52,064 nt of DNA from an uncultured Anaeroplasma sp. (GTDB taxonomy: Bacteria > Bacillota_I > Bacilli_A > Acholeplasmatales > Anaeroplasmataceae): positions 1 through 52,064 of the forward strand of contig CANQDJ010000008.1 of the NCBI GenBank assembly GCA_947592005.1, read 5' to 3'. Within the stretch, counting starts at the first letter, position 1; each line of letters starts with the position of its first letter. The position numbers and the translations under genes were made by a program. Shown piece after piece: positions 14,437 to 42,012 of the stretch. The notes under the pieces were generated by a model. It was not told where the DNA came from, ran no database searches, and saw only the letters and a list, made by a program, of their open reading frames with translations.

Positions 14437-15000
14437 TTATATTTTTAAAGTATCTATAAATGTTTCTATGTCCGTTTCCTTTGCGTTCGAAGAGAATCTT
14501 TTTCCTTGTAAAACTTCCGCATTCGGTTCACATTGTTTTATTTCCTCAATACTGGTTTGAATTCCACTGCCTCCCGAAGTGCAAAATGGGATAATAGTGT
14601 AAGAATTCAAATCGTATGTTTCTAAAAACGTATATATGATTTTAGGTAATTTTCCCCACCAAATCGGATAACCTAAAAAGATAGTATCTATATCGGTAAG
14701 ATCTATTGTGTTTTGAATTTCCGGTCGGGCGTTTATATCGTTTTGTTCTATATTTGCTCTAGAAGAATTATTGTTATAATTCAAATCGGCGTCGGTATAA
14801 GGTTGTAGTGGAAGAATTTCTTCAATAGAACAATTTAAATAATTTGAAATTTTATTTGCTACTTTTTCAGTGTTGTTTGTACAACTGAAATAAATCACTT
14901 TTATGTTACTATGTTCTGTATAAGTTGTTTTATTTTTATTTGTTGAACAGGCAGATAAAAATAAAAATAGAAATAGAAGAAGAATAAATTTTATTTTCAT
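14437..15000 (-). CDS. Flavodoxin-domain lipoprotein
   Basis: A 187-residue protein with a lipoprotein signal peptide: K-rich start, hydrophobic core FILLLFLFLFL and lipobox LSAC with C18 as the lipidated cysteine. The mature part is a flavodoxin: VIYFSCTNNTEKVANKI (phosphate-binding loop SCTNNTEK), TIFLGYPIWWGKLP and IIPFCTSGGSGI (FMN ring-side loop). The anchor places an FMN electron carrier on the outer face of the membrane, an uncommon place for a flavodoxin, whereas the neighbouring nitroreductase lacks a signal. It is part of the MarR operon, 12 bases from its neighbours. Confidence 0.9.
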   Translation of the reverse strand: MKIKFILLLFLFLFLSACSTNKNKTTYTEHSNIKVIYFSCTNNTEKVANKISNYLNCSIEEILPLQPYTDADLNYNNNSSRANIEQNDINARPEIQNTIDLTDIDTIFLGYPIWWGKLPKIIYTFLETYDLNSYTIIPFCTSGGSGIQTSIEEIKQCEPNAEVLQGKRFSSNAKETDIETFIDTLKI

Positions 15001-15012
15001 AACAGTATTTCC

Positions 15013-15768
15013 TTATTTTAATTTATTATATTCTTCGTCCGTAACAGGTTCTAACCATTCATTTGATGTTTCTTCTCCAGGAACTTCGATTGCCAAATGG
15101 GAAAACCAACTGTCTTTTGCCGCTCCATGCCAATGTTTAACACCTGCTGGAATATTGATACAATCTCCAGGATTCATTTCAATGGCTTCTTTTCCGTATT
15201 CTTGATAATATCCTCTACCACCTATACAAATAAGAATTTGTCCGCCATTTTTTTTAGAATGGTGAATATGCCAATTATTTCGGCAACTTGGTTCGAACGT
15301 TACATTAAATATTCCGACTTGACTCTTCGAAATAGGATAAAGATAACTTTGTCCGATAAAGTATTGTTTAAAACCATCGTTTTTTTCACCAATTGGGAAC
15401 ATAATACTATTTTGATAAATATCTTTTTCATTGTTTTCTTTTATTTTCTCATTCCAAACCTCTTTGGCTAACCGAAATACTGCCCACGCTTTCGGCCAAC
15501 CGACATAAAATCCGCAATGGGTGATAATTGCTACAATTTCTTTTTGACTGACTCCGTTATTTTTGGCATTTTGTAAATGATAAATCAAAGAAGTATCTGT
15601 TATTCCCGAAGACATAAGAGATACGATTGTTATAATACATCTAGTTTTGATATCAATATCCGTATTATTCCAATTTTCACCAAATAAGACATCATCATTA
15701 AAATGAGCAAAGTCCGGTGCGAAATCTCCTAGTTGTTTTCTTCCTGCATCTTGTGTTATTTTTTTCAT
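15013..15768 (-). CDS. Carboxymuconolactone decarboxylase-cupin fusion protein
   Basis: A 251-residue two-domain protein. The N-terminal CMD domain (about 1-115) has FAPDFAHFNDDVLFGENW, TRCIITIVSLMSSG and ITHCGFYVGWPKAWAVF but lacks the CxxC of AhpD-type peroxidases. The C-terminal cupin (about 135-240) has NWHIHHSKKNGGQILICIGG and NIPAGVKHWHGA, giving the usual metal-binding histidines and an acidic position in the strand between. Such fusions are common beside MarR regulators and reductases in gut Firmicutes; the reaction is unknown. The start overlaps the marR stop as ATGA, so the two are translationally coupled. Confidence 0.88.
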   Translation of the reverse strand: MKKITQDAGRKQLGDFAPDFAHFNDDVLFGENWNNTDIDIKTRCIITIVSLMSSGITDTSLIYHLQNAKNNGVSQKEIVAIITHCGFYVGWPKAWAVFRLAKEVWNEKIKENNEKDIYQNSIMFPIGEKNDGFKQYFIGQSYLYPISKSQVGIFNVTFEPSCRNNWHIHHSKKNGGQILICIGGRGYYQEYGKEAIEMNPGDCINIPAGVKHWHGAAKDSWFSHLAIEVPGEETSNEWLEPVTDEEYNKLK

Positions 15769-16374: not shown

Positions 16375-17877
16375 TTATTTTAAAATCCACTTTCCACCTT
16401 TATTAGATGTTTTACCTAATAGAAACTTTCCATTTTTCAATTCCTCTATCGCTCTACTAACTGATGCCATACTAATTTCTAATTTTTCCGCAATTTGAGG
16501 TTTAGAGATAAATGGATTTCTCTGTATTTCTTTATAAACTATTTGACTTAATTTAGAAAGACTTTTTATCGTATCATTTATCGTATCATTTATCGTATCA
16601 TTTATCGTATCATTTCCAATTTCTTTTGACTTATCTTTTAAGATTAAAGTCAGAATAGTTCTATCTATTCCTATCTCTTCTGTGATTATAGGAGTTGGGT
16701 AATTCTTTTCTTTGAAAGCCTTAACAATGGTAGGAATACCAGAACCAGCACGTTCTCCTACCCCTAATAAGTTAAAACATTTTAATATGTTACCATTCCG
16801 TGGTAAAGAAATACCACCTTTATAGGCATCTTCAATAGAAATCCTTAATGAACCTGGATTTTCAATAATAATTCGGTCGATATATCTTTTTATAACAATT
16901 CCTCTAGGAAAAGAGAAATCAGCATTTGTAATACAGTTTGCTAAAGCTTCACGGATAGCTTCATGTAAAGCAGTATCATTTTTTCTATATATACTATTTT
17001 CTTCTAATTTAAAAGGTAGAGGCAAATCTACACTTATTTTCGCATAAACTCGATTATAAAAATCAAATAAATTTCCACTCCATTCTCCATTATCAGAAAC
17101 AATCCTATCTGTATATCTAATGTCAGGATCAAGTGTTAAATGCTCCTGATAATCTAAAAAGTATTCTGGAAGATATAAAGTAATATTATAGTCATTACCA
17201 AAAAACAAGAAACCAAATAATGTAGGATGAAGTATATTGTTTTCATCATATGCAACAGCACCTATAACTCTTAAAAATTCATCTTCAGAAAGATTATGCC
17301 AAGGATGATTTGGCTTCTTGAACTTAAATTGTTCTCTAAAAGAATGAACGGTTTTCATATTGAAAGTATCATCACGTAGTGGAATATCTTTTAAAATACG
17401 ATGATCCACATTTTTTTCTTGGTCTCTTATCATTGCAACTACTTCAGTTTTTGTGCAATGATAATCTCCATCCTTATTTCTTCTAAAGGTTCCATTAAAT
17501 ATATCATTGTTAATGTATATTGGCTTTTGAAAATAAGAAGCCATAGGAATCTCAATGACAACTATGAAAGAAGAATTAATTTCTTCAATGTGAACGTTTT
17601 TTTCTTGAATTAGATTCAAATTTACTTTTTTATTATTGTGAATTATATTCCAAAAGGAAGTGATAAGATTATCACACTCGTTAAATGATAAACCAACAGG
17701 ATATAAGGTCTTATCTTCTTTTTCGGCAACACCTAAAAGAATTGTACCACCATGTGTATTAGAAAAACTACTATATGTTTCCCAAATACTATTTGGTAAA
17801 CCACCCTTAGCAGTTTTAACCTCTAATTGATTGTTTTCTCTTAAAGAATACAACTTACTAATATCAAACATACTCAT
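16375..17877 (-). CDS. ATP-binding AlbA_2 domain protein with C-terminal winged helix
   Basis: A 500-residue protein of the RecG-like/AlbA_2 regulator group. N-terminal AlbA_2 domain (about 5-130): RENNQLEVKTAKGGLPNSIWETYSSFSNT and GGTILLGV. The middle region includes the GHKL-like HATPase_c_4 module with HEAIREALANCITNADFS, RIIIENPGSLRI and GVGERAGSGIPTIVKAF. Near residues 420-435 four NDTI units come from a 12-bp tandem repeat. The C-terminus (PFISKPQIAEKLEISMASVSRAIEEL) is a winged helix. Function is unknown; the family is often linked to mobile regions. ATG 17877 follows AGGA by four bases; GTG 17880 and ATG 17871 are alternatives. It sits alone in the inverted-repeat-bounded segment. Confidence 0.88.
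   Translation of the reverse strand: MSMFDISKLYSLRENNQLEVKTAKGGLPNSIWETYSSFSNTHGGTILLGVAEKEDKTLYPVGLSFNECDNLITSFWNIIHNNKKVNLNLIQEKNVHIEEINSSFIVVIEIPMASYFQKPIYINNDIFNGTFRRNKDGDYHCTKTEVVAMIRDQEKNVDHRILKDIPLRDDTFNMKTVHSFREQFKFKKPNHPWHNLSEDEFLRVIGAVAYDENNILHPTLFGFLFFGNDYNITLYLPEYFLDYQEHLTLDPDIRYTDRIVSDNGEWSGNLFDFYNRVYAKISVDLPLPFKLEENSIYRKNDTALHEAIREALANCITNADFSFPRGIVIKRYIDRIIIENPGSLRISIEDAYKGGISLPRNGNILKCFNLLGVGERAGSGIPTIVKAFKEKNYPTPIITEEIGIDRTILTLILKDKSKEIGNDTINDTINDTINDTIKSLSKLSQIVYKEIQRNPFISKPQIAEKLEISMASVSRAIEELKNGKFLLGKTSNKGGKWILK
16568..16617 (-). repeat. 12-bp tandem repeat encoding NDTI units
   Basis: The + strand reads four units of ATCGTATCATTT, in frame with the AlbA_2 gene on the other strand. 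Unit-number changes would lengthen the linker before the winged helix without a frameshift. Confidence 0.9.
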
Positions 17878-37028: not shown

Positions 37029-38381
37029 ATGAAAAAAGGAGAGCATTTGAATCTGGATATAAGGCGATTGGGTATCAATGGTGAAGGAATCGGTTTTTAT
37101 AACAGAATGGCAATATTTGTGGAGAACGCCATTCCTTCGGAAAAACATGAAGTGGTTTTAACTCGTTGCGAGAATAAAATGATTTTTGCCAAAAGTGTGC
37201 AGTGTCTTAAAACAAGTCCTAGTCGCAAGAAAGCGGAATGTCCTTACTATGAATCTTGTGGCGGTTGTTCAGTGATGCATATTGATTATAATAAGATGTT
37301 GGAGTTAAAAAGAGATATTTTAATTGAATCTTTAAACCGATATACAAAATTGAATGTTCGTTCTTTTGAAATCCGTCCGACGATTCCTTCCGAACTGTTT
37401 TTTCATTATCGAAATAAATCGCAATTACCGCTAAAAAAAATCAACGATAGTACTATGATTTGTATGACTCGCCCGCAAAGTACGGATTTGATTCCGATTA
37501 AAGAGTGTATGGTGAATGATTCGTTGATTAATGAATTGTATGAAAAGATATTAAAATATATAGATGAATTGCATATTTCTTCTTATTTATATAAATTCAA
37601 AAGAGGAGTTTTACGTTATTTGGTTATAAGGGTAAATAAACAAAATGAGGCTCAAATTTGTTTTGTTTGTGCCGAAAAAAGTGAAAAGATTCGTATGCTT
37701 GCCAAGAAGGTAATAGAAATAGAAGAAGTAAAATCGGTTTATGAGAATTTTAATGATTCGAAAAAACAAGCCCTTATTTTCGGAGAAAAGACCAATTTAT
37801 TGGCAGGAGAACCTTATATAACGGAAACTTTGGGAAATGTTCGCTATCAACTTTATCCAACAACTTTTTTTCAACTGAATTCTTATCAAGCGGAACAAAT
37901 GTATAATGTTATTTTGAAGTCTTGTAAATTATCTCATAAAGAAAGAGTTTTAGACGCTTATTGCGGTGTTGGAGCGATTGGGTTATATCTTGCTAAACTT
38001 GCTAAAGAAGTAATCGGTATAGAAAATAATCCCGTTTCGGTATATGCTGCTAAAGAAAATGCGAAAATGAATAAGATAAAAAACGCTGAATTTTATGTCG
38101 GCGATGTGGAAAAACTTCTTCCTGAATTTATTGAAAAAGGTATTTGTTTCGATGTGGTTGTTTGTGATCCGCCGAGAGGTGGATTGGGAAAGGATTTGAT
38201 TCAAACACTTTTGAATGCCGAAATTCGTCGCATTGTTTATGCTTCTTGTAATCCGGCGACCTTTTCCAAAGATTTGGATATGTTATCCACTAAATATACT
38301 GTTCAATGTATAACACCTTTAGATATGTTTCCTCAAACACCCTTGGTTGAAAGTGTATGTCAGTTAGCATTGAAAGATTAA
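37029..38381 (+). CDS. 23S rRNA (uracil-C5)-methyltransferase, RlmD/RlmCD type
   Basis: SAM-dependent methyltransferase of the TrmA/RumA family, 450 residues. N-terminal TRAM-like region, then Fe-S cluster cysteines C71, C77 and C80 (CPYYESCGGC). Catalytic domain: YPTTFFQLNSYQAEQMYN, SAM loop LDAYCGVGAIGLYLA, DPPRGGL and the nucleophile C407 in VYASCNPATFSKDL. Firmicute members may modify U747 and/or U1939; which one cannot be told here. The start directly abuts the GH43 stop, with an internal ribosome site provided by the end of that gene (AAGGTTAGG). Confidence 0.94.
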   Translation: MKKGEHLNLDIRRLGINGEGIGFYNRMAIFVENAIPSEKHEVVLTRCENKMIFAKSVQCLKTSPSRKKAECPYYESCGGCSVMHIDYNKMLELKRDILIESLNRYTKLNVRSFEIRPTIPSELFFHYRNKSQLPLKKINDSTMICMTRPQSTDLIPIKECMVNDSLINELYEKILKYIDELHISSYLYKFKRGVLRYLVIRVNKQNEAQICFVCAEKSEKIRMLAKKVIEIEEVKSVYENFNDSKKQALIFGEKTNLLAGEPYITETLGNVRYQLYPTTFFQLNSYQAEQMYNVILKSCKLSHKERVLDAYCGVGAIGLYLAKLAKEVIGIENNPVSVYAAKENAKMNKIKNAEFYVGDVEKLLPEFIEKGICFDVVVCDPPRGGLGKDLIQTLLNAEIRRIVYASCNPATFSKDLDMLSTKYTVQCITPLDMFPQTPLVESVCQLALKD

Positions 38382-38401
38382 ACGAAATATATCAAGAGGG
38401 G

Positions 38402-38430
38402 AATAGCTGCGACATATCGCAACTATTTTT
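38402..38430 (+). terminator. Terminator after the rRNA methyltransferase gene
   Basis: AATAG-C-TGCGA / TCGCA-A-CTATT with one mismatch, followed by TTTTT. Confidence 0.8.
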
Positions 38431-38563
38431 GGTTCTCTAAAGTATAAAAGGTATAAGGGGAATGTGATAATAGAATAATTGTGGAGATATTTAATGTTTT
38501 TGAATCGTGTGTTACTGATAAATGTTATATATTGAAACAATAATTTTTACATCGTTATGCCGT

Positions 38564-38574
38564 TTTTATGCACT
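38564..38574. repeat. 11-bp direct repeat left of the RloAB cassette
   Basis: TTTTATGCACT occurs here and exactly again at 40788-40798 on the other side of the cassette. Confidence 0.55.
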
Positions 38575-38655
38575 TTTTTTGCAAAAATAATCATTAAGGC
38601 ATTTACTTTTGAATATAATAATAGTAAAATAAGTGTAATAAAGGAGAAGATTACT

Positions 38656-39960
38656 ATGTTAATAAATTTCAATTTTTCAAACTCTAGGTCTTTTTATGAA
38701 ACAGCATCTTTAAGCATGCAAGCCACTAAAGATGAAGAATTAAAACAAATTAACACTTTTACTATTGATGAAAATTTAATGCCTAAAGGAGAAAATACTC
38801 TTTTAAAGTCTGCTATTATTTTTGGTGGAAACGCTTCAGGAAAATCTAATATTTTCAAGTCTTTAGCATATATGAAGAATGTTATATTATATTCAGCATC
38901 TCAATTACCTATAGTACAAAGTAATGAAACATATGCATTTTATGAAAACACAATAAAGGAAGATAGTTTATATGAAGTTGAATTTATTCAAAATAATACA
39001 TATTATAAATATGGTTTTATTATAAATGATTGTATTGTTAAAAAAGAATGGTTAGAAAAAAGAAAAGAAAGATTAACTACTGTTTTTAAACGTTCTGAAA
39101 AGGGCTTGGAAATCATAGGCCCAGATAAAGCAGCATCAAAACTAATTAATCTTAGTCCAACATCCTTATTTTTATCTGTGGGTAAAAATTTTCATTTAGA
39201 TATAACGAAACATTTAAATGATGTAATGACATGGTTTCAAAGACTACTTATTGTTTTTGAGAATAATGCAAACAGTTTAGATATTTATACTATGGAAAAT
39301 GGAAAGTACAAGGAACAAGCTTTAAAGATATTATCACTTGCTGATATTGGAATTAAAAATATTGATGTTGTTAAGGATAAAATAGTTAATATGGCAGGTT
39401 TTAATGATGTATTACGTTTTAATACCGAACTACAAATTCAACCTAAACCTTTATTAGGGCAATTGAAGCAAGAAGAAAACAATATATTCAATATTGATAT
39501 GCGTACGTTCTTTGATGTCTATGATTCAAAGAGTAAAAAGCCTATTTCTAAAAAAGAAATTATGTTATTAAAGGACGCAGGATTTAATTCTGAAGGTACA
39601 CAAAGACTATTATTTTATTTGGGGTGGATTCTTGCTGCTTTAGATCAAGGAAGAGTAATTGTGATAGATGAAATAGATGCAAAACTACATTTTTTAGTGG
39701 CTGACTATTTAATTAAATTATTCAACTCTATTGATAAAAATCCCAAAAACTCTCAATTGATATGTACTGCACATAATGTAATGCTTATGGATGAAGATTT
39801 AAGAAGAGATCAAATTTATTTTACTAGCAAAGATACATTTGGTGAAAGTTCTTTGGCCGCTTTAAGTGACTTTAAAAATGTTCGTAAAAAGAATTTATTC
39901 AGTAAACGGTATTTGGCTGGGTTTTATTCTAAATTACCTGATATGAATAAAGAAATATGA
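38656..39960 (+). CDS. RloA/AbiLi-like AAA ATPase of a phage-defence pair
   Basis: A 434-residue ABC-type (SMC/OLD-like AAA_15) ATPase. It starts with the family's MLINFNFSNSRSFYETASLSM, Walker A GGNASGKSN (57-65), a long central helical insertion, a signature-like SEGTQRLLFYLGW, Walker B VIVIDEIDAKLH (D338, E339) and H373 in TAHNVMLMD. ATG 38656 follows AAGGAG by nine bases; the frame extends 33 codons upstream without a ribosome site. It overlaps or abuts the RloB gene. Such pairs (RloAB, AbiL) sense phage infection and trigger abortive growth arrest; that role here is inferred from family and pairing. Codon use is more A/T-rich than in neighbouring housekeeping genes. Confidence 0.87.
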   Translation: MLINFNFSNSRSFYETASLSMQATKDEELKQINTFTIDENLMPKGENTLLKSAIIFGGNASGKSNIFKSLAYMKNVILYSASQLPIVQSNETYAFYENTIKEDSLYEVEFIQNNTYYKYGFIINDCIVKKEWLEKRKERLTTVFKRSEKGLEIIGPDKAASKLINLSPTSLFLSVGKNFHLDITKHLNDVMTWFQRLLIVFENNANSLDIYTMENGKYKEQALKILSLADIGIKNIDVVKDKIVNMAGFNDVLRFNTELQIQPKPLLGQLKQEENNIFNIDMRTFFDVYDSKSKKPISKKEIMLLKDAGFNSEGTQRLLFYLGWILAALDQGRVIVIDEIDAKLHFLVADYLIKLFNSIDKNPKNSQLICTAHNVMLMDEDLRRDQIYFTSKDTFGESSLAALSDFKNVRKKNLFSKRYLAGFYSKLPDMNKEI

Positions 39961-39971
39961 GGCAATTAGAG

Positions 39972-40568
39972 ATGGCTAGAAGCATTAAAGAAATAAAAAC
40001 AAGAGATACATTTTATATTTTGACTAATGGTAAGGAAACAGAATATAATTATTTTGATCTTTTAAAATCAAAGAAAAGTATATATAATGTGAAAGTTATT
40101 TATTTCCATAAGGATCCTTATGCATTAATAGAACAAGCAAAAACTTATTTATCCAATGCGAATCAAGATTGGGCTGTCTTTGATATTGATAACACCTATG
40201 AAGAAAATAGATTGATTCCAACTTTAAAACTAGCATCTCAAAATGGAATAAAGTATGCTTATTCTAATTTAGCTTTTGAAGTGTGGTTAATTATGCATTT
40301 TAAAGAGTGTTTCAAGGAAATGGACACGAAAGAGCACAAGCGTGTTTTGGATAAATATCTAAATGAAAAACAAGCAGGCCTTTCTTATAATAAGAGTGAT
40401 AAAGAAATTCTAAAGAAGTACTTTATTCCTTACTATAAAACCGCAATGCAAAATGCAAAAATAAATTATCAAAGTCGTGTAGCGGAGCATAACAGATATA
40501 GTGAAAATACTCAAATGAAGATATGGGAATGGAATTCTTCAACAAATGTTTATAAACTTATTTATTAG
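39972..40568 (+). CDS. RloB/AbiLii-like TOPRIM-fold effector
   Basis: A 198-residue partner of the upstream ATPase. RloB signatures: GKETEYNYFDLL near 20-31, VFDIDNTYEEN (D71, D73) and KYAYSNLAFEVWLIMHF (95-110). The canonical first motif is EGxKTExxYF; here the glutamate of EG is N19, so a metal-binding TOPRIM acid is substituted while the DxD is kept. ATG 39972 is chosen, nine bases after GAGG and giving the family-like MARS start; ATG 39957, overlapping the ATPase stop as ATGA, is the alternative. Probably a nuclease or tRNA/DNA-acting toxin activated by the ATPase (inference). Confidence 0.85.
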   Translation: MARSIKEIKTRDTFYILTNGKETEYNYFDLLKSKKSIYNVKVIYFHKDPYALIEQAKTYLSNANQDWAVFDIDNTYEENRLIPTLKLASQNGIKYAYSNLAFEVWLIMHFKECFKEMDTKEHKRVLDKYLNEKQAGLSYNKSDKEILKKYFIPYYKTAMQNAKINYQSRVAEHNRYSENTQMKIWEWNSSTNVYKLIY

Positions 40569-40731
40569 TTATTTTGTTTTAGCACTTTAGTTGGGAAATC
40601 AAACGTAAATCTTTGATTATTAATTTTGGCGATAGAAATGATTAAATTTTATTAAATATAATTATTGATACTATATTTTTAAGTATTTTTTCTTTGCCAA
40701 AGTTTGCTTGAGTTTTGTAAGATGAGATATA

Positions 40732-40779
40732 AAAAAAGTCCATAGTAGAGCCGTTAATTGTGCTTTTACGGGCTTTTTC
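40732..40779 (+). terminator. Terminator downstream of the defence pair
   Basis: AAAAAGTCC / GGGCTTTTT with a G-U pair, and an inner CCGT/ACGG stem. It lies 160 bases after the RloB stop. Confidence 0.65.
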
Positions 40780-40788
40780 AGTCTTTAT

Positions 40789-40814
40789 TTTATGCACTAC
40801 ATTTATGCACTACA
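40789..40814. repeat. Tandem repeat TTTATGCACTACA x2
   Basis: Two exact adjacent 13-bp copies (40789-40801 and 40802-40814). The first contains the 11-bp repeat also found at 38564-38574. Confidence 0.85.
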
Positions 40815-40989
40815 TACATTAAACACATTTTGAAATATTGGCTGTAGCAAAATTATTAAAGGAAATAAAGGTATATTATAATTATAAACATTGGCTAAGT
40901 TTTATAGAAAATATGAGTTATGATTATTCTTACCTACGAGTTTCAAGAACGATAGATAATGATATGGGTTAAATCTTACAGAAGAAAGA

Positions 40990-41127
40990 GAGTACAGTCA
41001 CTTGAAACAATTAAAGATGGATACTCTAAGTATTTTTTGACATTGGGTAAACTTCTTCCAAAAGGGAGCGGAGTCAAGCATCTTAATATCATAGATAGGA
41101 TTACCAATCATATGGATTTATCTTAGA
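40990..41127 (+). pseudogene. Fragment resembling a DUF4143-type AAA ATPase C-terminus
   Basis: One frame reads QSLETIKDGYSKYFLTLGKL, then LPKGSGVKHLNIIDRITNHM, ending at TAG 41125-41127. A helix with I-KD-YSKY, a strand, a glycine turn and HLNIID match the last 40 residues of DUF4143 ATPases. Upstream sequence is broken by stops. It is a second decayed copy in this window, not identical to the fragment at 18444-18598. Confidence 0.5.
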
Positions 41128-41295
41128 ATTTTAAGAAATATCTTTCATTTGTTTTTTCTAATTACCTTAAATTAAAAAACATTATAAAATAAGAACTGGT
41201 TTTTCAAAATGTTTTTAAGTATTTTTGTTTTGTCTTTATATCGTTTTACCTAAAACAAAGTTCATATACTGCATATTTATACATTAGGTGATGGT

Positions 41296-42012
41296 ATGCA
41301 AAATATAGTTATGGGAATATTGATTCCGCTCATAGGAACATCTTTTGGGGCTTTTTTGGCTTTGTTTTTTAAAAAGAACATGAAAGATTTTATCCATAAA
41401 ATGATGATGGGATTTGCCGCAGGAGTAATGATTGCGGCAAGTATTTGGAGTTTGATTTTACCATCTATCGAATTATCGGGAGATAATCCCTTTACTTGTT
41501 ATCTACCTGCAACGATTGGTTTTATTTTGGGTATGGGCTTTTTGATGTTATTTGATCAAGTGATGGCTAAAAGAAAAATCAATATGTTGAATTTTGCGGT
41601 AATTATACATAATATACCGGAAGGGTTTAGTGTTGGTGTGGCTTTTGCTGCTGCATTGAGTGGAGATACTATACTTATGACTTCGGCATTTTTGTTGAGT
41701 ATTGGTATTGGTATTCAAAATATTCCCGAAGGAAGTATTATTTCATTGAATATGCTGAAAGGGTGTTCTAAAGCGAAAGCAATATGGATTGGAGTGGCAT
41801 CGGGAATTGTTGAACCGATTGCCAGTGTAATCGCTATTGTGTTGATATATTTTATTCGACCGATCTTGCCATACACGTTGGCTTTTGCCGCAGGAGCGAT
41901 GATATATGTTGTGGTTGATGAATTGATTCCAGAATCCAATGGAATTTATGGAAATATTGGAGTTTGTATTGGGTTTTGTATCATGATGATTTTAGATGTA
42001 ATGCTTGGCTAG
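41296..42012 (+). CDS. ZIP-family metal ion transporter
   Basis: A 238-residue divalent-metal (zinc/iron) transporter with eight predicted helices. Helix IV carries H105-N-I-P-E109-G, and helix V has QNIPEG, where the usual histidine of HxxPEG is Q141; that ligand change may alter metal preference. A short variable loop follows helix III (MAKRKINML). ATG 41296 follows GGTGATGG. Monocistronic; no metal riboswitch or regulator is visible upstream. Confidence 0.92.
   Translation: MQNIVMGILIPLIGTSFGAFLALFFKKNMKDFIHKMMMGFAAGVMIAASIWSLILPSIELSGDNPFTCYLPATIGFILGMGFLMLFDQVMAKRKINMLNFAVIIHNIPEGFSVGVAFAAALSGDTILMTSAFLLSIGIGIQNIPEGSIISLNMLKGCSKAKAIWIGVASGIVEPIASVIAIVLIYFIRPILPYTLAFAAGAMIYVVVDELIPESNGIYGNIGVCIGFCIMMILDVMLG

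Follow-up and report, generated by a model that had tools for sequence, protein, structure and literature searches.

How did a two-gene defence cassette come to lie between housekeeping genes of a Mollicutes-like gut bacterium, and what might it do there? In the window (the whole stretch of 52,064 nucleotides analysed here), two co-directional ORFs separate a gene that we take to encode a TrmA/RlmD-like methyltransferase from a ZIP transporter gene recognised with Pfam. The original prediction, made from the letters of the DNA, was of a stand-alone RloA/RloB (AbiL-like) pair that had been inserted as a unit, an event thought to be marked by an 11-bp direct repeat on either side. We conclude with good, though not full, confidence that an abortive-infection operon of the AbiL type occupies 38518-40562 and was probably acquired as a unit by horizontal transfer; AbiLi would restrain AbiLii, and the repeats are uninvolved. 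The features on which this rests are collected in Table 1.

Table 1. Features of the AbiL locus, in window coordinates.
Feature	Position	Strand	Description
Block shared with L146, where it lies at another locus	38518..40562	+	blastn; upstream region, abiLi and nearly all of abiLii
Left 11-mer TTTTATGCACT	38564..38574	+	inside the block shared with L146; L146 reads ATTTTTGCACT
Upstream region kept in L146	38576..38630	+	sequence and alignment; palindrome and promoter-like pair
abiLi	38656..39960	+	434-aa AAA_21/ABC-type ATPase, ATG at 38656; Pfam AAA_21, PADLOC AbiLi
abiLii (RloB-family effector)	39972..40568	+	Pfam RloB, PADLOC AbiLii
IS1634-family 3'-end copy	40697..40814	- (strand of the lost transposase gene)	includes the right 11-mer together with the tandem 13-mer
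Probable 5'-end remnant of the same IS, fused directly to the 3' end	40815..40834	-	28 of 32 columns agree with the IS 5' end over 40803-40834

The two genes form a stand-alone AbiL pair

Judged by its sequence, the locus is a stand-alone RloA/RloB (AbiL-like) pair and an ordinary representative of an established defence family. The product of the first gene matches the PADLOC AbiLi model at E 8.8e-77 and Pfam AAA_21 at E 5.5e-27; the predicted ATPase therefore stands, but its assignment to the AAA_15 type does not (26 bits against a cut-off of 32.1). As expected of an AbiLi-type AAA/ABC ATPase, it carries a Walker A (GGNASGKS) and a Walker B (IDE) motif, and GxNASGKS and IDE are among the conserved columns of the AbiLi alignment. 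The second product is the anticipated RloB partner (Pfam RloB, E 9.2e-26) and matches PADLOC AbiLii at E 1.3e-19, the only PADLOC family that it matches at E ≤ 0.01. Its gene follows directly on the same strand, with 11 bases between the abiLi stop and the ATG at 39972. The longest abiLii frame opens at 39957; we take 39972 as the likely start because two related loci, L146 and L147, begin at the corresponding Met in the alignment. The adjacent ATPase and RloB genes, their order and their matches to both PADLOC models are those of AbiL of Lactococcus lactis. That system is a lactococcal plasmid system, whereas the pair described here occupies a chromosomal spacer in a Mollicutes-like gut MAG.

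The surroundings of the pair also agree with what had been predicted. Housekeeping genes lie on both sides, and the two genes are A/T-richer (GC 0.27 versus 0.34 for the window). A PADLOC scan of all 44 ORFs of at least 150 aa in the window matched 24 families at E ≤ 1e-8, none of which bears a restriction-modification name. Among these matches there is also no sign of hsd genes alongside, as there would be for an RloA/RloB pair within a type I restriction-modification operon. An NCBIfam search with the AbiLi and AbiLii proteins gave no match, and an Rfam search of 38300-41400 gave nothing at E ≤ 1.

Spacers of 274 bp on the left (38382-38655) and 727 bp on the right (40569-41295) flank the pair. 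The left spacer contains a 12-bp palindrome, TTTTTGCAAAAA, at 38576-38587 and a promoter-like TTTACT-17-TAAAAT (38602-38607 and 38625-38630), which we called by eye; both are kept in L146. Further upstream, the 27-base stretch 38430-38456 resembles (88-89%) sequences of the host genome (G000) at C57:5443, C19:24242 and C38:12535, where its counterparts precede terminator-like DNA.

The pair occupies another locus in a related genome

When the AbiLi alignment was scanned against genome contigs, the best 80 of 395 confirmed stretches corresponded to 79 distinct loci, and RloB follows abiLi in 66 of these. Among the 13 loci without an adjacent RloB, L149, L162, L196, L223 and L224 end 0-300 bases from abiLi, RloB overlaps abiLi at L207, a split RloB lies on the other strand at L178, and the RloB profile finds none at L148, L150, L151, L185, L198 and L221. 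The nearest locus among these best stretches, L146, belongs to a MAG named 'uncultured Anaeroplasmataceae bacterium isolate Lapin-005__bin41' (genome G060). By blastn, window 38518-40562 aligns with L146 5866-7910 at 86.9% identity over 2048 columns, the only other L146 match being one of 149 columns at window 14889-15031. Identity per 100 bp is 0.69-0.96 over 38582-40581 and 0.34-0.55 from 40582 on. The genes flanking the L146 pair differ from those in the window, and our best estimate of the transferred unit is 38518-40562.

AbiLi is 94% and AbiLii 76-77% identical between the two loci. In a comparison covering 400 kb of the about 1.3 Mb of G060 plus two loci, 18 other proteins with reciprocal best hits in the window were 38-86% identical (median 57%). 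Because some housekeeping proteins reach 84-86%, the 94% of AbiLi is by itself no proof of transfer; it is chiefly the different location in L146 that makes horizontal transfer of the pair likely. Comparison with genus-mates adds a near-empty spacer: in G004 the same flanking genes (methyltransferase 65% and ZIP 57% identical) stand 46 bp apart, versus 2914 bp in the window. Together, the different locus in L146 and the absence of the pair between the same genes in G004 support the predicted insertion as a unit. G011 has a 684-aa ORF without a Pfam match between these flanking genes. In G002, close to the end of the contig, a Fic-family gene that seems to be broken comes next after the methyltransferase gene. 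The position downstream of the methyltransferase gene may be a variable site.

Is the pair maintained? Comparison of the window with L146 gives a dN of 0.034 and a dS of 0.444 for abiLi, and a dN of 0.132 and a dS of 1.11 for abiLii, whose dS is near saturation. That dN falls far short of dS in both genes suggests a pair that is under selection and functional.

Relatives of AbiLi are thinly spread in the genus. Among 26 genus-mates, AbiLi was found at 51% identity in G026 and as weaker or partial matches in G001, G017, G020 and G023; it was not found in the other 21, and many of the 26 are incomplete MAGs. Plasmid records (172) and phage records (8) also contain AbiLi relatives, all less than 60% identical, and a 73% identical AbiLi is encoded at L147, in a Clostridia MAG. 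At that locus abiLi begins 123 bp after the end of a serine recombinase (Resolvase and Recombinase domains), and L147:8004-10769, downstream of the pair, encodes a 921-aa SMC/AAA-like protein whose best PADLOC match is Ppl (E 1.6e-17). The host itself has a second AbiL system from G000:C19:22222 onward (L055:10235-12144), with an intact AbiLi (PADLOC AbiLi, E 1.8e-87) and an RloB spread over three frames, adjoining a TraG/VirD4-type coupling protein gene. At L056:6712-9014 (G029, the contig of L150), the gene downstream of an AbiLi relative (45%) encodes an RNA ligase (PF09414, E 1.5e-20) instead of RloB.

The 11-bp repeats do not bound the block shared with L146

The two repeat copies are real. 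Exact TTTTATGCACT occurs at 38564-38574 and 40788-40798 and nowhere else in the window, and the right copy overlaps, as had been noted, a tandem 13-bp repeat, TTTATGCACTACA (2.1 copies, 40789-40815). Elsewhere in the window, 16565-16615 is a perfect tandem 12-mer array, TTTATCGTATCA, of 4.2 copies. Could a unit 38564-40798 have inserted as such and left the 11-mers as its target-site duplication or as a recombination scar? The 11-mers are unique in the window, they enclose the operon with its promoter-like region, and the AbiL pair is a late arrival, all of which would suit such a scar. We nevertheless consider it extremely improbable, and it is already contradicted by three lines of evidence.

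First, the caveat that chance might produce the repeat proved well founded. In dinucleotide-preserving shuffles, the longest exact word shared by the spacers was at least 11 bp in 123 of 400 cases, and 24 of 123 sliding segment pairs of the same geometry within the window share a word of at least 11 bp. The expectation of 0.03 for the 11-mer applies to a word fixed beforehand, whereas this word was chosen afterwards as the longest; two-copy 11-bp repeats number five in the 3.1 kb searched, TTTTATGCACT among them. The 11-bp repeats around the AbiL pair look coincidental.

Second, the repeats are in the wrong places. The edges of the shared block are at 38518 and 40562, so that the junction lies elsewhere, the outcome named beforehand as speaking against the repeats. 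The left 11-mer lies 46 bp inside the block, beside the palindrome, and L146 has no exact copy of it there, whereas 226 bp separate the right 11-mer from the block. A single 11-mer had been expected at an empty site, but TTTTATGCACT was not found on either strand in the 9 kb around the G004 site, nor at the L146, L147 and L148 loci. The repeats are thus neither at the edges of the inserted block nor present as a single copy at the empty site.

Third, the right copy is insertion sequence DNA that is found elsewhere without AbiL (see below). The shuffles, the L146 block edges and this IS origin together lead us to reject the TTTTATGCACT pair as a target-site duplication. When the left 11-mer was tried as a second IS end, alignments to both IS ends on both strands all failed to span the whole 11-mer; the best of them involved the A/T-rich stretch 38519-38543, treated below. 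The left 11-mer is cassette sequence, the right 11-mer is part of a decayed IS1634-family element between abiLii and the ZIP gene, and the 11-bp repeats play no part in the mobility of the AbiL pair.

The right repeat belongs to a decayed IS1634-family element

Searched against the host genome, the right spacer gave two strong secondary matches, C68:4425-4536 (84%) and C30:16715-16810 (76%), the other matches (48 at E ≤ 10) having E 0.0017 or weaker. The C68 copy holds the exact 11-mer and follows a presumably secA-like gene and a short ORF, unrelated to AbiL genes; the C30 copy follows what we take to be a homoserine-dehydrogenase-like gene. Across the genus, 40690-40815 is matched at E ≤ 0.01 in five of 27 genomes, host included (G000, G001, G009, G026 and G008, where the match spans 21 bases only). 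In an alignment of 11 copies, the ten besides that of the window share the outer end ACCSGAGTTTGCC, and the inner side runs into a gene end wherever the contig is long enough. In G001:C3 the gene beside the IS end encodes 606 aa that match NF033559, a transposase model for the IS1634 family, at E 3.3e-69, and the other end of that element carries the inverted terminal repeat AGGCAAACTCGGG. Of four exact copies of this 13-mer in the host, two are on the 3' ends in C30 and C68; the two at C41 and C51 are followed by different sequence and are read as IS 5' ends. Three further host sites with one mismatch do not continue like the IS.

The right-repeat region of the window therefore has the sequence of an IS1634 3' end, equal to the end that adjoins the NF033559 transposase in G001. 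In contrast to that element, the window copy has a degraded outer end and no transposase ORF in the right spacer, and is therefore a remnant rather than an intact IS. The IS1634-type end also occurs where there is no AbiL gene.

What became of the rest of the element? The window 3'-end copy stops within the second 13-mer and gives way to 20 bases similar to the IS 5' end, where the same word, TTATGyACTACAT, is also present. For the part after this word, 2 of 20,000 random window 21-mers score equally well. Speaking against a 5' end, 40815-41295 alone scores 28.5 in local alignment with the IS 5' end, which does not exceed shuffled sequence (mean 27.6, maximum 41.5, n = 200). We regard the 3' end at 40697-40814 as firm and its fusion to a 5' end at 40815-40834 as likely but short of certain; the simplest inference is that the transposase gene was lost from between the two TTATGyACTACAT words. 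RNA folding of 40700-40800 is not special (z -1.33). A suspected DUF4143 gene remnant at 40956-41126 had no Pfam match at E ≤ 1, scored against the host's own DUF4143 protein no better than 52 of 500 shuffles, and matched two plasmid records at E 0.08; it is not claimed.

With an IS relic 129 bp past abiLii, the pair might have moved inside an IS1634 element or between two copies. The A/T-rich stretch 38519-38543, just inside the left edge, agrees with the G001 IS 3' end at 21 of 25 positions, a score that 5 of 300 shuffles reach. However, the relic lies outside the block shared with L146, and 38519-38543 aligns less well with the IS end of the host itself (score 26.5 versus 32.0) and corresponds to the interior of the IS rather than its terminus. 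To the left of abiLi, the search for an IS end gave nothing convincing. We thus judge carriage by the IS very unlikely, and the likeness of 38519-38543 to the IS is probably due to chance.

AbiLii has an altered motif I

In the predicted model, AbiLii position 24 comes immediately after the first strand, where TOPRIM proteins presumably have their catalytic Glu. Of the 67 RloB rows having a residue there, 63 have Glu and four have Asn: those of the window, L146, L147 and L152, the last being an ORF that represents G026, on the same contig, by its N-terminal part only. The window AbiLii thus differs from AbiL at the motif-I Glu and keeps D76 and D78 (DxD), T28, E29, E108 and W110 (FExW). Its C-terminus is six residues shorter than that of L146. 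Given both changes, AbiLii could be altered or weak.

Is the pair then a decaying copy, or one whose effector has lost its chemistry? Besides Asn24 and the shortened C-terminus, the greater divergence of AbiLii than of AbiLi (77% versus 94%), the split RloB of the host C19 copy and an in-frame stop in G026 point this way. We nonetheless find this unlikely: dN is well below dS in both genes, with the reservation on abiLii saturation made above, the other motif residues are kept, and Asn24 is common to four loci and so is not a fresh lesion. Another reading is that the AbiLii proteins of the window, L146, L147 and L152 form a subclade of re-tooled effectors, in which the change from Glu to Asn would come with an altered metal site and possibly a different substrate or chemistry; these effectors would have spread between gut Mollicutes-like bacteria and Clostridia. 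The kept DxD pair and the purifying selection between window and L146 are consistent with this, which we put forward as a rather doubtful possibility.

Broken effector genes were seen at other loci: RloB has an in-frame stop in G026 (L054, G026:C60) and is cut short at L148, and AbiLi is intact in both. In these two cases the effector seems to decay before AbiLi.

A restrained effector as the likely mode of action

What would the pair do? The predicted structure of AbiLi (pLDDT 84) resembles Rad50, SMC heads, PtuA and the OLD nuclease ATPase, and the core of the AbiLii model (pLDDT 82) consists of alternating strands and helices. The 28 and 22 sequences in the structure alignments were hand-picked from the 79 AbiLi loci and two genus loci. 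A PDB sequence search gave 10 weak rows for AbiLi, the best an AAA family ATPase (E 5e-4) with PtuA and RecF chains lower, and none for AbiLii at E ≤ 1. A PDB fold search with the AbiLii model gave none at E ≤ 0.001. On a second look at the fold, the OLD C-terminal region ranked 38th (Z 7.2, rmsd 4.3, 141 aligned), below unrelated folds of up to Z 9.0; AriB and RNase M5 were absent among the best 50 matches, which excludes nothing. The best viral match of AbiLii is an RloB-like phage protein (E 6.2e-09).

Two systems offer a guide. According to PMC10440598, RloB is related to OLD TOPRIM domains, and the TOPRIM_OLD(D44):AAA(D29) pair of Clostridium algidicarnis, an RloB-homologous toxin domain with an AAA partner to which we liken the window pair by description, was tested by toxicity neutralisation and validated as toxin and neutraliser. 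In PARIS, according to PMC12409363, AriA sequesters AriB, and phage detection leads to release and tRNA cleavage. By analogy with these systems, we infer sensing, release, nuclease action and abortive infection for the window pair: (i) AbiLi, an SMC/Rad50-like ATPase, would hold the RloB effector AbiLii inactive; (ii) phage infection would be sensed, and AbiLi would release AbiLii; (iii) the released AbiLii would act as a TOPRIM-type nuclease, its favoured substrate, judging from AriB of PARIS, being an RNA such as tRNA; and (iv) this action would stop the infected cell.

How closely might the pair follow PARIS? In the detailed version, an AbiLi oligomer would sense a phage protein and free AbiLii, and tRNA would be cut. 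The plan of an ABC-type ATPase with a separate TOPRIM-type effector is that of AriA/AriB (PMC12409363, PMC10440598), and the PADLOC AriA models, although they match AbiLi weakly, are its next best after AbiLi. On the other hand, the partner in the window is an RloB rather than an AriB-type protein, the two being different families; AbiLii has no significant fold match to a solved nuclease and lacks the motif-I Glu, and its target might instead be DNA, as for OLD proteins. The detailed PARIS-like route is therefore tenable but falls somewhat short of probable.

Implications

Under the reading that we prefer, an AbiL-type operon probably acquired as a unit, the AbiL pair has different locations in distinct gut genomes, and comparison sets the bounds of the shared block. 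The locus also illustrates how a decayed insertion sequence can imitate the direct repeats of an insertion. Finally, Asn at an otherwise conserved position of AbiLii would provide a simple test of the residues that an RloB effector needs.
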